The position numbers and the translations under genes were made by a program. 40,856 nucleotides of DNA, taken from Pseudomonadota bacterium. Its GTDB lineage: Bacteria > Pseudomonadota > Alphaproteobacteria > GCA-2731375. This document shows, in pieces, positions 2,577-31,231 of the stretch; the first letter of the stretch is position 1, and every line of letters begins with the position of its first letter. The notes beneath the pieces are model-generated. The model did no database searches. It was not told where the DNA came from and saw nothing but the letters and a program-made list of their open reading frames with translations. The stretch covers positions 1-40,856 of the forward strand of contig JAQBYC010000034.1 in assembly GCA_027623205.1 (NCBI GenBank), in the 5' to 3' direction.

Positions 2577-4285
<1,709 letters not shown>

Positions 4286-4379
4286 AACGCGGCGACATCC
4301 GGCGGTGGTGTTATTCTTACGGTAGTTCTGGTGACGGCACAGGTCGCCTTTGTCCTTGCCGCGAACAGCGCACACGCCG

Positions 4380-24173: not shown

Positions 24174-26156
24174 CTATTGCCCCATGCAGGCATCGTAGCG
24201 GGCCGCGGCAAGATCAACGCACAACGCCACATCCTGGGCCAGCAGATATCGCTGCCCGACCAGATCCGCCGCCACCGCGCGCACCCGTTCCAGATAGACT
24301 GCGCGGCTAGGGTAACGTTCCGGCAACGAGGGGCGCGGGTCGCCGGCCGCCTCGCGGCTGGCCTTGTCCCTGGCAAAGGGAATGGTGGAACCGACGTATT
24401 CCAGCAACTGCCCCGCCCCGCCGGTATCGGGGTGACGGGGGTTGAAGCCCGTATGGGTGGCAACCGGCACGGCCACGTCGGGCATGGCAAGACCGGCGGC
24501 CTCGTTGCCATTCTCGTCCACCTTGGAGACCCAATCGGGATAGGCGACCGGCCCAATCTTTGCCGGCATGGCGCCGATCCCGCGTTCGGCGTCAGGACCA
24601 AGATCCAGAGGATAAACCCAGGTCATGACCGCAGCATCGGGCAAGGCCAGGCCGGGTATGGTCGATAGCCTGTCCATGACCTCGCTACGCGTGCCGCGGT
24701 TATTGTTGGCGGCGGTGGGAAAGGCGCTCTCGGGCGGCGCGGTATCTTCCTTGACCCAGGCCAGCAGGTTCATCAGGGCGGCCCGGTACAGCGGGCGATA
24801 GTCAATGATGTTGAGGTAATTTTGACCATGACTGCCGAACATGGTGCGTTTCACCAGGACGGCGGCGCCAGGACCATGCTGGGTCGAGGCGAACAGATAA
24901 CGCCGCACGCCAGAGGGCAATTCGGCATCGCCGCCGGTTTCCAGGTTGCCGTGGCTCAGACCCGCGTCACCGCGCCAGTATTCCGACGAGGTATCCGTAT
25001 AAATAATCTTGGGCATGGCGCCCGCCGCCGTCTGCCGCAGCAACAGACCATCGGTGGTTCCGGTCAAAGGATCGATCTGGCGACCGTCGGCGAAGGGAAA
25101 CAGGTGGCCGAACGAAGGTGTTGGCTGCACCGAGGGTTGGGCATAGCGGTGATTGAATTCCCCGCGCCGGCCCCCGGCGATATGGGCCAACACGCCGTCC
25201 AGGGCGGGGCGGCCCGCTTCGTCCCGGTTCAGGCCCAAATAAAGATAGGTGCGCAGAAAGCGGCCGCATTGGGACTGCCCCTCGCCAATCACATGGTCGA
25301 TGGCGCCGGCAGTGGGCGCAGCCGCATCATAGCGCAGATACGACGCCAGTTCCCTGGTCGCGAGCAGGCCCGCACCCACGACGGGGCAGTCCATGGGGGT
25401 GTAGAGCAGATCGTAAATCCGCCCTGCTTCGAAGCCGCCGTCCAGCCAGACATGCCCGTCATCGCCCACCACACTGCCGTCATTAACCCGGGCAAAACGC
25501 CATTGCGTCCGTGGCATGAGTTCCGGTTCGCCATAGGGGCCATGGCGCACCCATAATTTGGCGCCAGGCTCGTCAATGTCGCCCACCCGCACCAGGCTAT
25601 GGCGGCCCAGGTCACCTACATGCTGATCCGTCAGGGGCAGACAATCGCGGGCTTGGTCCGGTTGAATACGAAGCTGCATCTGTCCGGGCGGCCTCCGCGC
25701 GGCGACCGGTACACCGGGCGGCACCAGGCCAATGCGCGGGCGCTCCGCCGTGCGCGGCACATCCCATTGCCAACCGGCCCAGGCAATGGTCCAGCCCTGC
25801 GCGAACAGGAAGCCGTCGCCGGGGGCGATTTCCGCGGTATCCTCGGTGCCCATGGGGGATTGGTTAAAGCGAGCCAGCACGCGTTTGCCCCGGTTTGGCA
25901 CCTGCATCAATAATGCGCGGTTGCCGGCGCCCGTCTGCACAGGCTGCAACAGCGTCACATCGCCCTGAAAGTGCACCAGGCCATCCGCCTCACGCGCCGC
26001 CAGGGACAAATCCACCACGCTCTGGTTGGCCGCATGCAGGGGGTCAACCACATAATGGGCAACCGCCTCGATGCGCTCATAAGGTCCGACATCGCCAAAG
26101 CCGCGGCCGTTTTCGTATAGCCCCCGTTGCAGAATGTCCAGCTGGGTAAGGGCCAT
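24174..26156 (-). CDS. Alpha/beta hydrolase domain protein (Abhydrolase_10 type)
   Basis: 660 residues. The sequence fits the large Abhydrolase_10 family: N-terminal YENGRGFGDVGPYERIEAVAHY, a mid-region HVIGEGQSQCGRFLRTYLYLGLNRDE with the nucleophile elbow GQSQCG, and C-terminal VPVATHTGFNPRHPDTG. No convincing signal peptide. Family members are poorly characterised; some lie in catabolic clusters. The ATG starts one base after the stop of the upstream paralogue gene, so translation is coupled. Substrate unknown, but the context suggests hydrolysis of an ester or amide intermediate in the cluster's pathway. Confidence 0.85.
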   Translation of the reverse strand: MALTQLDILQRGLYENGRGFGDVGPYERIEAVAHYVVDPLHAANQSVVDLSLAAREADGLVHFQGDVTLLQPVQTGAGNRALLMQVPNRGKRVLARFNQSPMGTEDTAEIAPGDGFLFAQGWTIAWAGWQWDVPRTAERPRIGLVPPGVPVAARRPPGQMQLRIQPDQARDCLPLTDQHVGDLGRHSLVRVGDIDEPGAKLWVRHGPYGEPELMPRTQWRFARVNDGSVVGDDGHVWLDGGFEAGRIYDLLYTPMDCPVVGAGLLATRELASYLRYDAAAPTAGAIDHVIGEGQSQCGRFLRTYLYLGLNRDEAGRPALDGVLAHIAGGRRGEFNHRYAQPSVQPTPSFGHLFPFADGRQIDPLTGTTDGLLLRQTAAGAMPKIIYTDTSSEYWRGDAGLSHGNLETGGDAELPSGVRRYLFASTQHGPGAAVLVKRTMFGSHGQNYLNIIDYRPLYRAALMNLLAWVKEDTAPPESAFPTAANNNRGTRSEVMDRLSTIPGLALPDAAVMTWVYPLDLGPDAERGIGAMPAKIGPVAYPDWVSKVDENGNEAAGLAMPDVAVPVATHTGFNPRHPDTGGAGQLLEYVGSTIPFARDKASREAAGDPRPSLPERYPSRAVYLERVRAVAADLVGQRYLLAQDVALCVDLAAARYDACMGQ

Positions 26157-26157
26157 G

Positions 26158-27198
26158 TCAACGAACGCCCCTGATCGCGTTTGTTTTTATATCCCAAAGG
26201 CGTCGGGTTACCGAACGGCTGCCCCCGGCCCACAGGGGCAGGTGGGTCATCTTCACCCCCGCCCCGCCGGTGATGATGGGGTGAATATCCCCTGCGCCGG
26301 CGGCGATGGGACGCATTGCGGTAATGCTGGCGATTTCAGGCAGGGTAACCGTGCCCGCGGTAAGCAGATAATCCTGCACACGGGCCAGATCCCAGCCATG
26401 CTTGACGACCAGTCGGGCCAGTTCGGGAGGGAACAGGAAGAACTGCTCACCAAGGTCCCGCCGCCGCCCGGCGCTGGCAACCGCCCCCGCGGCGGTCATG
26501 GCGGCGGCCATGGGCGCCAATATGGCCTCCGGCGTATCGCCGCCGCCGCTCGGCAAAACCTCCGCCGTGCCGGAAACGCCAAGCACCGTTACCGCGCTCG
26601 TCGCCCCATCAAGCCCACGCCGCGCCGTCAGGGACGGGAAGATCGCTTCATCGCCCTCGGGAAAGCAAAAGGTATACTTGCCCGGCTGGCCCATGGTTGC
26701 CATATCGCCTATGCCGGCCCGCGCACCGCCGATATTGCGCATCACCAGAGCGATGGCCCGGCCCAAAGACGCATTGGCGCGGTTGCCGGGGCCAAGGCAG
26801 TTGGTTCCGGCGTTCATGCCCAGGGTACGGACAATGGGACCATGCACGATTGTCACCACGGCCGGGGTGCCCGTAGTGGTCAGTATACCCAGCAGGTTAA
26901 ACCGCGGCTCCAGACAGGCCGCGGCGGCGGTCAGCACAATTGGCAACGCCGCCCGCTGGCAGCCGGCCAAAACGCAATTGTAAGCCACGGCGGCGGCCGT
27001 CAGGTCGCCGAACAGCGGCAGCACCTGACCATGGGATTTATTCGGCGCGGCAACGCCGGCCAGCATGGCCTGCAATCTCTGCATGGTCGGCGGCACCAAA
27101 GGCAGACCATCGCCCAACTCAGCCTCTTCCAGGACGGCCTGGGCCTCTTCCCAGGGCACTGTTTCCTCGAAGATCGGCAGATCGGCCCACAATTCCAT
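26158..27198 (-). CDS. Conserved protein of unknown function, paralogue B of the selenoprotein cluster
   Basis: 346 residues, same length as its neighbour at 27216-28256, and clearly homologous to it. Shared blocks: DGLPLVPPT (30-38), LAGC (Cys80), GPIVRTLGMN, NCLGPGNRANASLGRA (Cys134), NIGGA and GQPGKYTFCFPE (Cys178). Three cysteines are kept in both copies. I recall this family beside UGSC selenoproteins, without a known function. The ATG at 27198 gives MELWADLPIFEETV; a longer frame to 27525 is only a shadow through the upstream gene. It begins 17 bases after the paralogue A stop and ends one base before the hydrolase gene. Two equal-length paralogues in a row suggest a heteromeric complex. 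Confidence 0.8.
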   Translation of the reverse strand: MELWADLPIFEETVPWEEAQAVLEEAELGDGLPLVPPTMQRLQAMLAGVAAPNKSHGQVLPLFGDLTAAAVAYNCVLAGCQRAALPIVLTAAAACLEPRFNLLGILTTTGTPAVVTIVHGPIVRTLGMNAGTNCLGPGNRANASLGRAIALVMRNIGGARAGIGDMATMGQPGKYTFCFPEGDEAIFPSLTARRGLDGATSAVTVLGVSGTAEVLPSGGGDTPEAILAPMAAAMTAAGAVASAGRRRDLGEQFFLFPPELARLVVKHGWDLARVQDYLLTAGTVTLPEIASITAMRPIAAGAGDIHPIITGGAGVKMTHLPLWAGGSRSVTRRLWDIKTNAIRGVR

Positions 27199-27215
27199 GG
27201 CAGGGACGTCGGCCG

Positions 27216-28256
27216 TCAGACGTGCGACAGCCGCACGGAGCAGGCGGAGGTAAACCCGAAGGGGGGAATATAGGCGGAATGCTTGCCGGGCCCGCCGGCC
27301 ACCAGCATGAGGATATCCTCGGGGCTGGGCGTCATGTGGTAATGGTCTTTGGCCATGGGCCGGTCCATGCTCGCGTAGCTTTCCTGATTTTCCGCGGAAA
27401 CGCGGGAGATATGCACGGCTGAACGATCGTATAGATCCTGCTGCATATCTGGAATGGTCCAACCGTCCCGGTGCAGGGTCCGGGCGTGTTCCGGGCCCAG
27501 CACGATGAAAATGGGCGCGTTGCAATAGATCGTATTGGCGCCAACCTGGGAAATCGTGCCCGCGATGGTGGTCAGAATACCGATACCCGTATTCGAACCA
27601 TGATCATTGATATTGTGCGGCGCCTCGCCCGGCATGGCGGTGACCACGCTGTCTTCCGCCGCGAAGCGCCGGCGCACATGGAAAGGCTCCCACGGACTTT
27701 CCTCCTCGTTCTCACCGAAACAAAAAGCATATTTCGCCGGCGATCCCTGGGTGGAGCGATCCATCACCCCTGGTTTGGCGCCGCCCACGTTCAGCAGGAT
27801 CAATTGCAGCGCCCGGCCAATCGTGGCGTTGGCCTGCCGGCCCTGGCCAAAACAGTTGGAGGAACAGTTGATATCCAAGGTCTTGCGGATCGGTCCGTTG
27901 AACAACAGCATGGGCGCACAGGAATGCGTCGTCGCCAGACTGCCGTGCAGATTGTATTCCGGCGTCAGCACCGCCCGCACCGCCGCCAGGACGGCGGGGA
28001 AATATTCCGGCCGGCAACCAGCCATGACCGCATTGGCGGCCATGGCCTGCAGGGTCGGGATCACCCGGCGCGGTGACATGGCCGGGATCGGCTCGTTATC
28101 CCCGTGACAGGTCGCAACAAAGCGCTCCACCACCGCCTCCGTCGGCATCACCAGGGGGAAGCCGTCGCTCCAGCCCTGGGCGCGGGCATATTCATCCCAT
28201 TCGGCCTGGTCCAGGTCACCAATATCCAGCAGTTCAGTATCCGGTGCCGCTTCCAT
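27216..28256 (-). CDS. Conserved protein of unknown function, paralogue A of the selenoprotein cluster
   Basis: 346 residues, paralogue of the following gene. Blocks in order: DGFPLVMPT (31-39), NAVMAGCRPEYFPAVLAA (Cys81), YNLHGSLATTHSCAP, GPIRKTLDIN, NCFGQGRQANATIGRA (Cys135), NVGGAKPG and GSPAKYAFCFGENEEESPWEP (Cys179). It also has a Cys131 and Cys113 not kept in paralogue B. No signal peptide or membrane helix. It starts 87 bases after the true stop of the selenoprotein gene. The conserved cysteines and the selenoprotein neighbour make a redox or thiol-transfer role possible, which is inference. Confidence 0.8.
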   Translation of the reverse strand: MEAAPDTELLDIGDLDQAEWDEYARAQGWSDGFPLVMPTEAVVERFVATCHGDNEPIPAMSPRRVIPTLQAMAANAVMAGCRPEYFPAVLAAVRAVLTPEYNLHGSLATTHSCAPMLLFNGPIRKTLDINCSSNCFGQGRQANATIGRALQLILLNVGGAKPGVMDRSTQGSPAKYAFCFGENEEESPWEPFHVRRRFAAEDSVVTAMPGEAPHNINDHGSNTGIGILTTIAGTISQVGANTIYCNAPIFIVLGPEHARTLHRDGWTIPDMQQDLYDRSAVHISRVSAENQESYASMDRPMAKDHYHMTPSPEDILMLVAGGPGKHSAYIPPFGFTSACSVRLSHV

Positions 28257-28343
28257 GTTCTTGCTCTTCGCTCTCTTTTGCCGCCCACACTCAACCCGGG
28301 CTGAACCAGCCCGGCCTGCCCGCGCCACCACGCACGCCGTCCG

Positions 28344-28862
28344 TTAAACTGCGATCGCCGCCTGCAAGCCACTGGCCGCTGTTTCTATCCGTTCCACCAG
28401 TTCCTCGGCATTCAGACCGCCAATGGGGTGTTTGATAACGATCACCTGGGCCTTGACCTTGCGCGCCTTGGCCTGGGCCTGCACCAGGGGCAGGAAGGTA
28501 TCGGTGGTCAGGATGAAGTTGGTAACGCCGCGTTTTTCAAGCTCGATGCTGTCATGGAAACTCCACGACGAACATGCGCCTCAATCCGCTATAGCGAGTA
28601 ACGCCGCCCGGTATTTCGTGGCCAACGCGTCATACATCCCATCCGGCGCCCCTTGGGCCGCGGTGTCCTTGGCGATGTAGTCGATGTTGTCCGTGGCGCG
28701 ATAGGCGCCCATCTTGTCGCGGACACCTTCCAACAGCTCTTTCGCATTGGGTTTGGAATTGGAAAACAGGATGATCGGATCATGTTTCCAATCGACCGCG
28801 TTGGCCCCGACCCGTTCGGTACTGGGCGCCTCATGGCCAAAGGCTGGATTGACAATTCGCAT
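28344..28862 (-). CDS. UGSC-family selenoprotein with in-frame UGA (Sec94)
   Basis: Read with UGA at 28583-28581 as selenocysteine, this gene gives 172 residues. Before the UGA: MRIVNPAFGHEAPSTERVGA, then DPIILFSNSKPNAKELLEGV and a helix ending ALLAIAD. After it: U-GACSSWSFHDSIELEKRG, VTNFILTTDTFLPLVQAQA, then VIVIKHPIGGLNAEELVERI and a TAA at 28346-28344. The motif U-G-A-C with a following helix fits the UGSC (seleno)protein family, where Sec or Cys stands at that spot. The frame stays open and protein-like for 79 codons past the UGA, and a SECIS hairpin follows at the right distance. GGGAGAG precedes the ATG. An ordinary gene call would stop at the UGA and lose the C-terminal half. Function of the family is not established to my knowledge. 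Confidence 0.85.
28551..28569 (-). promoter_or_regulatory. Bacterial SECIS element
   Basis: The minus strand reads GTCGTGG-AGTTT-CCATGAC: a 7-bp stem (one G-U pair) with a five-base apical loop. The loop begins 18 bases after the UGA, and a G is the second loop base. This fits the usual bacterial SECIS pattern (short upper stem, small loop with G among its first two bases, loop 16-37 bases from the UGA), which SelB reads to insert selenocysteine. Confidence 0.75.
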
Positions 28863-28939
28863 GCTGGCTCTCCCTTCATGCAGTTGGATCATGCAGCGGT
28901 AAGCTTAAGCCACTGAAGCGGGCGGTGGCAAGGTGGCCT

Positions 28940-31231
28940 CTAATCTGCACCGGGCGGCGGGGAAAACGGCGTGGGCTCCAGGAACCGGCGCAAGACGTTG
29001 CCGGTAATCTGGGCGACATTGTTGGCGTAACCCTCATGGGCCAGGCTGCTGATCCAGGCGATGGAACCGGTGGCGAAAACCGCGCCGCCCCGGGGGCATT
29101 CGAAAAACACCATATCGGCCCGCACATTGGGGTCGTCGAATTGCGGCATGGTGGAGAGGAAATCTTCCTTGGTGCGCAACATATCGCCGCCGAAGTCATT
29201 GGCCCGGGCCAGCACCAAGGCATGGATGGGGGTGCCGTCGCGGGTATCCCAACGGTCGATCTCTTCGCCGGCCGCCCCGCCGCCAATGCTGCCGAAATCA
29301 CCGATCGGGCCGGTCCCCACCCCGGCAAAGGCAAAGGCCGCGCGTGGATCGTCAGCGCCGCTCTGGCGTTCATAGTGGCCGCTCTTCTCGAACCCCTGGG
29401 CGGCAAAGCCGATGCCGACCAGCTGGTTCGGCGGGCGGCCGTTGCGGCGCCACAAACCGCCGTATTCGCCGTCAAAGGACTGGTAATATTCCCCCACCGG
29501 CGACATCCAGGCACGGGTCCCATCCTCGGCCCGGCGCACCTCGATTACGCCCGGCTTGTCGTCGCGAAAGGCGATGCGCCAGTAAAAGCCATTGCCGCCC
29601 AGATACATCAGACGGCCGCCCTGGTCTAAAAACGCGGCGATCCCATCCAACATGGCGGTGGAGTGGTATTCCGGATGGCTGCCAGTCAGGATGCAGCGGT
29701 AGGGCTGCAACAGTGCAGCGCCCTCCCGGTGCAGTTCCTCGTCGGTAATGACATCGAAAGTCTGGCCGATCCGGGTCAGCCAGGCCACAATGTTCAGGTC
29801 GGCGGGCAGGCCCCAGGGCCGGTTGTCGCCCGGCTTCATATTCATCACCGGACGCAGGCGCGAGGAATAATGAATGCCGCTGCGGTCGTCGTGCAAATCA
29901 TAGAGAGAGCCGCCAACTTCCGGATGGCCGGCCAGAAAGCCGTCATTGACCCATTCCGGATGGCCATCGCCAAAAATCAGATTGGGTTTCAGACGCTGCC
30001 GTGTATTGGCATAGGCCATGTATGAGGCCGTGGGCACCAGCAATGCCACATCCGTCCTGGCCCGGCTGCCTGCAGGAACCCGTGGCGGCAACACGAAAAA
30101 TGGCATCCGATCCACATCGCTGCCATGACGCAGGCGGGCGGCGTATACCCCGCTGGGCAGATCGTCGGGCACGGTATAGCTGAAATCGGTCTGCCAGGCG
30201 GCATCGTACAAATCATCCTGATGAAAATGGATGGCGCCATATTGCTCCCGGGCATGGCGCCAGCTGTGTTCACCGCCGTCCCAGTTATGGCCGGTGACCC
30301 CGCGGGTGGGCAGATTGACAACCCGGCCGTGCCGGCCATGGCGGGTTAAATCGCGGATCCGGTCGCTGGAAATATCGGCGGCGAAATCCCAACAACCACG
30401 CACACAATCGATTAGACCGCCGGGCAACGCCGGGCCGGATAACGCCGCCATTTCGGCATCGTTTAGCGCCCGGTCGGCGAGCCGGGGCCGGTCGATCTTG
30501 CCGTTGAAATGCCTGGTAAATTCAGCCGCTTCCGAGCTGCCGCCCCCGGCTGCGAACAGAAACAGCGCCGCCGCCGCACCCGGCATCAGATCTTTCGCCA
30601 GAACGTCCGTGCGCTCCGTGGCCGGCGAGACCAGGCTGTCTCCCGGCCCGCTGGGCACGGGCCGTTGCACCAACCGCGCCCGGCCGCTGGCCCCATCATA
30701 GCTGGCCGCGACAAATGCCCACTGCCCCCGGCGCATGGGTACGCCGGTACTTAGGAACCCCCGGCGCCCAGCGCCGTCCTCGTCTTCGCCAATGGCCAGT
30801 GCCAGGGCGCCGTCATCATCCAGCAACAGGGCAAAACCGGCCCCGCCGGCACCAATTTCATCAGCCCGCCAGCGCCCCATAACCACCTGTTGTTGCCGCC
30901 CCGGCAAGGTGGGCTGGATCATCGCCTGCAAAGTAAAACTGTGCAGCCCGGCCAAATCCTTCCCCTCGTCGACGATGCCGTGGGAGCCCGTGTGGATGGC
31001 CTGATAGCGGCCGGGGTGGGGCCCAGCAAAGGGCGCCGCCAGCACCTCTTCGATCACGCCGATGCCACCCGGCGTATTGTCGCCACCGGTCACATGGACC
31101 AGATCGGCCTCATAAATTCGAGGGGAGGCGCCGCCTTCATAACAGCAGACCTTGAAATCCAGGGACTGCCCCGGACGGACGGAAATGGGTTCGCAATAGC
31201 CGGTAATGGTCTTGCGGCGCAGTTCAGGCAT
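28940..31231 (-). CDS. N,N-dimethylformamidase large-subunit-like amidohydrolase
   Basis: 763 residues, equal to the large (beta) subunit of N,N-dimethylformamidase, whose sequence it follows throughout. A LamG-like beta sandwich spans about 95-270; the catalytic part carries ASYMAYANT (Tyr404), LYDLHDDRSG (Tyr444) and TGSHPEY (Glu521), matching the two tyrosines and one glutamate that bind the mononuclear iron in the known enzyme. Other matches: NWDGGEHSWRHAREQYGAIHFH and ELPADL-like GLPADLNIVAWL. The known enzyme splits DMF to dimethylamine and formate and needs a small subunit; none is encoded here, so the substrate is probably another amide. First gene of the selenoprotein cluster; 77 bases before that gene. 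Confidence 0.85.
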   Translation of the reverse strand: MPELRRKTITGYCEPISVRPGQSLDFKVCCYEGGASPRIYEADLVHVTGGDNTPGGIGVIEEVLAAPFAGPHPGRYQAIHTGSHGIVDEGKDLAGLHSFTLQAMIQPTLPGRQQQVVMGRWRADEIGAGGAGFALLLDDDGALALAIGEDEDGAGRRGFLSTGVPMRRGQWAFVAASYDGASGRARLVQRPVPSGPGDSLVSPATERTDVLAKDLMPGAAAALFLFAAGGGSSEAAEFTRHFNGKIDRPRLADRALNDAEMAALSGPALPGGLIDCVRGCWDFAADISSDRIRDLTRHGRHGRVVNLPTRGVTGHNWDGGEHSWRHAREQYGAIHFHQDDLYDAAWQTDFSYTVPDDLPSGVYAARLRHGSDVDRMPFFVLPPRVPAGSRARTDVALLVPTASYMAYANTRQRLKPNLIFGDGHPEWVNDGFLAGHPEVGGSLYDLHDDRSGIHYSSRLRPVMNMKPGDNRPWGLPADLNIVAWLTRIGQTFDVITDEELHREGAALLQPYRCILTGSHPEYHSTAMLDGIAAFLDQGGRLMYLGGNGFYWRIAFRDDKPGVIEVRRAEDGTRAWMSPVGEYYQSFDGEYGGLWRRNGRPPNQLVGIGFAAQGFEKSGHYERQSGADDPRAAFAFAGVGTGPIGDFGSIGGGAAGEEIDRWDTRDGTPIHALVLARANDFGGDMLRTKEDFLSTMPQFDDPNVRADMVFFECPRGGAVFATGSIAWISSLAHEGYANNVAQITGNVLRRFLEPTPFSPPPGAD

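Follow-up and report, generated by a model that had tools for sequence, protein, structure and literature searches.

In bacteria, SelB recognises a hairpin just after a UGA codon and delivers Sec-tRNA. The question raised by this locus, which lies in a window of 40,856 nucleotides (the whole stretch of DNA that was analysed), is whether the hairpin found behind an in-frame UGA of a UGSC-family gene is such a bacterial SECIS element, or whether a hairpin at that place says little about how the UGA is read. The features concerned are listed in Table 1.

Table 1. Coordinates of the hairpin, of the gene that contains it and of the neighbouring partner genes in the window.
Feature	Position	Strand	Basis or remark
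Predicted bacterial SECIS upper hairpin, GUCGUGG-AGUUU-CCAUGAC	28551..28569	-	Folding and homolog conservation
Apical loop, A-G-U-U-U	28558..28562	-	Sequence; Ser AGT in 127/127 Sec genes
In-frame UGA, predicted to be read as selenocysteine, residue 104 of P0001	28581..28583	-	Same place in 80/80 GTDB relatives
Predicted UGSC-family selenoprotein gene, motif U-G-A-C	28344..28862	-	Pfam PF24696, E=5.5e-31; NCBIfam NF041046, E=1.5e-30, below cut-off
Partner gene	27216..28331	-	No Pfam/NCBIfam model; likely start ~28256; next gene to UGSC
Second partner-family gene, paralog of the first	26158..27525	-	32% identical over 315 aa

On the minus strand, the UGA (28583-28581) is followed by GGCGCATGTTC GTCGTGG AGTTT CCATGAC AGC, where nucleotides 28569-28563 pair with 28557-28551 and leave 28562-28558 as the loop. 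The first-pass annotation had claimed this hairpin with the loop starting 18 bases downstream of the UGA, a G as the second loop base and a stem with one G-U pair and no other defect. Its letters, coordinates and strand all matched, the spacing was counted as 18 nt, the second base of the loop was G, and the stem consisted of 7 bp including the single G-U. An extra inner A-U pair is possible, with which the hairpin would have a 3-nt loop on 8 bp and a spacing of 19 nt. When the 19-mer was folded, a minimum free energy (MFE) of -9.3 kcal/mol was obtained, with the additional A-U pair formed at the loop base, and the 49-mer that includes the flanks gave -19.4 kcal/mol (z -3.07).

The published bSECIS model (PMC13188914) sets limits of 3-9 nt for the loop, 4-16 bp for the stem, 16-37 nt for the UGA-loop spacing and an MFE of -7.5 kcal/mol or lower, and requires a G within the first two loop bases, usually as N-G-[G/U]. 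As the first-pass annotation had proposed, every numerical constraint of the model was satisfied, by the 5-nt loop on 7 bp as well as by the 3-nt loop on 8 bp, by either spacing and by the energy of the 19-mer, and the loop G rule was obeyed both here (AGUUU) and across homologs (xGU). Compared to the bSECIS consensus (E. coli fdhF; bSECISearch model, PMC13188914), the hairpin has the same place, 18-19 nt spacing, small loop, N-G-U loop start, stem length and energy, and none of its features falls outside the model. The variants found in relatives, such as a 4-nt 5' bulge below the upper stem or the different stem of the TPAV paralogs, are also within its range. An Rfam search of the hairpin region with E values up to 10 returned no match, which shows just that no listed model fits.

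A match of this kind in a lone sequence is weak evidence, because 7-9% of chance or recoded sequences give such stems. When a minimum stem of 7 bp and the loop G rule were added to the published limits, 7.6% of the 1035 TGA triplets of the window passed, and 8.5% of the synonymous recodings of the same peptide produced a stem of this length with the loop G in place. Only the comparison of homologs sets the hairpin far apart from chance, and its function as a SECIS is strongly supported because those homologs conserve it, as a single sequence proves little.

Homologous UGA genes without a hairpin at this spot had been named by the first-pass annotation as the finding that would speak against it. 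With conservation defined as a stem of at least 5 bp and the loop G at the same spot, the G-loop hairpin was detected in 105 of 110 distinct UGA homologs, compared to 9.9% expected when the genes were recoded synonymously at their own codon frequencies. The alignment of the region was ungapped. When UGSC genes were sought in 289 genomes of the class, all matches but one had the UGA at the same codon. Within the S-W-S-F clade (92 genes), mean synonymous diversity was 0.157 in the hairpin vs 0.455 elsewhere (p=0.002), and codons +5 (TCG), +7 (AGT), +8 (TTC) and +10 (GAC) were each invariant in 92/92. The loop GU, at positions 2-3 and a putative contact for SelB, is supplied by a serine AGT codon, which was used by all the genes with serine there, AGT making up 5-6% of serine codons. 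The dual constraint, coding and structural, that had been proposed for this stretch is borne out by a hairpin conserved at the same distance in nearly all UGA homologs and by the frozen silent sites within it.

The stems were also compared for compensatory silent changes. Among 36 aligned sequences the loop-closing pair changed from G-C (10 sequences) to C-G (26 sequences) between W-type and C-type genes, and 0 of 500 shuffles gave as many cells with both sides altered. This exchange is covariation, but it is not silent, since it accompanies the replacement of Trp/Phe by Cys/Leu or Met. The two basal pairs (12-30 and 13-29) are variable, and about 30% of the 36 homologs lack them. Separately, the wobble bases of codons +4 and +9 counted from the UGA (28569 and 28554 in the window) read G..T or A..C in 90/92 S-W-S-F genes, a suggestive pattern, as if the total stability of the stem were held level. 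As a case of compensation this coupling was rejected, with just 3-4 changes on the tree and no significance. The TPAV group (U-G-S-C-T-P-A-V) has a hairpin at the same spot, GCCCGC-CGUGUU-GCGGGC, whose stem bears no relation to the one described here and whose CGUGUU loop takes its GU from another reading frame; this is the best evidence that the structure and its loop, and not the peptide, are maintained.

Six homologs with Cys in place of the UGA (L134, L140 and L183-L186) served as a control. In all six, neither of the first two loop bases at the place of the hairpin was a G, and four had weak stems, so that a structure conserved in UGA homologs is absent or relaxed in Cys homologs, as expected of a bacterial SECIS. 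L183 and L185 retained a 6-bp stem with the loop UCGAC, and part of the stem therefore follows from the amino acids alone. As SelA was found in 4/6 of the genomes with Cys homologs, loss of the hairpin follows the loss of the UGA and not that of the pathway. These genes bear directly on the explanation that the hairpin is a coding by-product of the peptide C-S-S-W-S-F-H-D and of codon usage, with the UGA recoded by other signals. The stems kept by L183 and L185, and the proportion of recodings that reach at least 7 bp (8.5%), are what such a by-product would yield, but a hairpin at the right place arises in only about 10% of recodings against the 95% observed, the rare AGT is fixed, the silent sites are frozen and the loop G is out of place in all Cys genes, which makes this explanation very improbable.

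The genome that contains the locus, alphaproteobacterial to judge from its relatives, encodes a tRNA-Sec with a TCA anticodon, SelB, SelA beside SelB, and a SelD that carries an in-frame TGA of its own. With the hairpin kept in UGA homologs, the loop G missing in 6/6 Cys homologs and this complete machinery present, the SECIS identity claimed in the first-pass annotation was upheld: the hairpin is almost certainly a bacterial SECIS, through which the UGA of the UGSC-family mRNA would be decoded as selenocysteine via SelB. The gene family and the hairpin type were both already known, and this is a well-supported, ordinary case. Eight UGSC paralogs are present in the same genome, each with exactly one in-frame TGA, and since their stems differ they are a natural set for probing how far SelB tolerates variation in the SECIS.

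Two SelD genes were found, on contigs C63 (L026) and C163 (L027); one of them is a selenoprotein gene with an in-frame TGA and the other lies within a 794-aa open frame, possibly as a fusion. The tRNA-Sec gene was located just upstream of a partner and UGSC pair in this genome (L017, contig C209), and in six relatives (L064, L069, L070, L076, L086 and L094) it was in the same fetched locus as such a pair.

Hairpins after stop codons can promote read-through in other systems, and the present one might likewise stimulate ordinary read-through, with Trp or Cys for instance inserted at the UGA, or ribosome pausing, without SelB. Against this stand the complete Sec machinery of the genome, the fit of every published bSECIS parameter and the occupation of the site by a UGA codon or Cys only, so that such a role is less credible still than the coding by-product. 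Equally hard to credit is a truncated or broken gene, with the UGA as a genuine stop codon or a mistake of assembly, since, even if standard gene calling ends the gene there, the homologous UGA is found in independent assemblies of all 80 GTDB relatives, residues D114, F133 and P156 downstream of it are invariant in 45 aligned homologs and six homologs have Cys at the site. The standard annotation, with the gene ending at residue 103 (from the ATG at 28892), is therefore wrong, and reading through the UGA is supported by comparison and not by pattern matching alone.

With the UGA read as selenocysteine, the gene likely starts at the ATG at 28862 (MRIVNP..., 172 residues), the ATG at 28892 (182 residues) being the alternative, and it ends at the TAA at 28346-28344. 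Its product matched PF24696 over residues 13-179 with 108.4 bits, compared to a gathering score of 25, and belongs to that family. With U entered as C and the motif UGAC, it reached 106.2 bits with NF041046, under the curated cut-off of 125 for equivalog membership, and the gene was therefore filed under the Pfam family and not under the equivalog model. In the GOS survey (PMC2398784), a UGSC-containing selenoprotein family is described from ocean metagenomes, with 255 Sec forms vs 21 Cys forms. The sequence match, the Sec position, the UxxC motif and the prevalence of Sec forms are common to that family (PMC2398784; PF24696; NF041046) and to the genes studied here, whereas the motif of the present sub-clade is U-G-A-C, not U-G-S-C, and the score is below the NCBIfam cut-off.

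From what is known of SelB and SECIS elements, SelB-GTP with Sec-tRNA(Sec) would bind the hairpin when a ribosome meets the UGA of the UGSC mRNA, mainly through the GU-containing apical loop, and selenocysteine would be delivered to the A site in place of termination. The expected product is a UGSC-family selenoprotein of 172-182 aa whose U-G-A-C redox motif opens a helix. In the structural model of the protein (pLDDT 90), Sec is predicted at the end of a strand just before a helix. This is where redox-active UxxC motifs usually lie. The best fold matches of the model were generic three-layer alpha/beta proteins (Foldseek E 3.6e-4, TM ~0.4; Z up to 10.4), and a Trx-like fold is suggested for the family in the GOS paper (PMC2398784). 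Searches for sequence relatives in the PDB returned none for P0001 or for the partner-family profile, and a best E of 0.084 for the UGSC profile.

The function of the UGSC protein may be approached through the partner family, an obligate companion that provides a concrete route to it. No model of Pfam or NCBIfam matched this family, and the partner protein had no convincing counterpart in fold searches (Foldseek best E 4.8e-3, TM ~0.2; VIA Z <= 5.9). The second partner ORF, as listed, overlaps the first partner gene, and its true start is likely near 27225. Of the loci fetched for UGSC, 158 had a relative of the partner family next to the UGSC gene, and a genome-wide profile search placed both families in one identical set of 28 genomes out of 289 (Fisher p ~1e-39, with the genomes treated without regard to kinship). 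The GOS paper reports UGSC fused to a domain called 'Unknown_1' (PMC2398784), which is probably the partner family. Such constant pairing suggests, as the simplest reading, a two-subunit selenoenzyme. On balance, we slightly favour UGSC as the Sec-bearing subunit of an uncharacterised class of two-subunit enzymes with the partner as second subunit, expanded in this genome to eight Sec copies, possibly one per substrate.

The UGSC unit is flanked on the minus strand by Abhydrolase_10 and dimethylformamidase-like (DMFA2_C) genes (24174-26156 and 28940-31231), which are kept in the closest relatives only and hint at the breakdown of a small organic substrate. Elsewhere in the window, an Rfam tRNA match at 4231-4304 (minus strand) was not called by ARAGORN. 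Its 3' half is like an initiator-Met tRNA, with a CAT anticodon and a CCA end, and its 5' half is divergent; it is possibly the remnant of an integration site.
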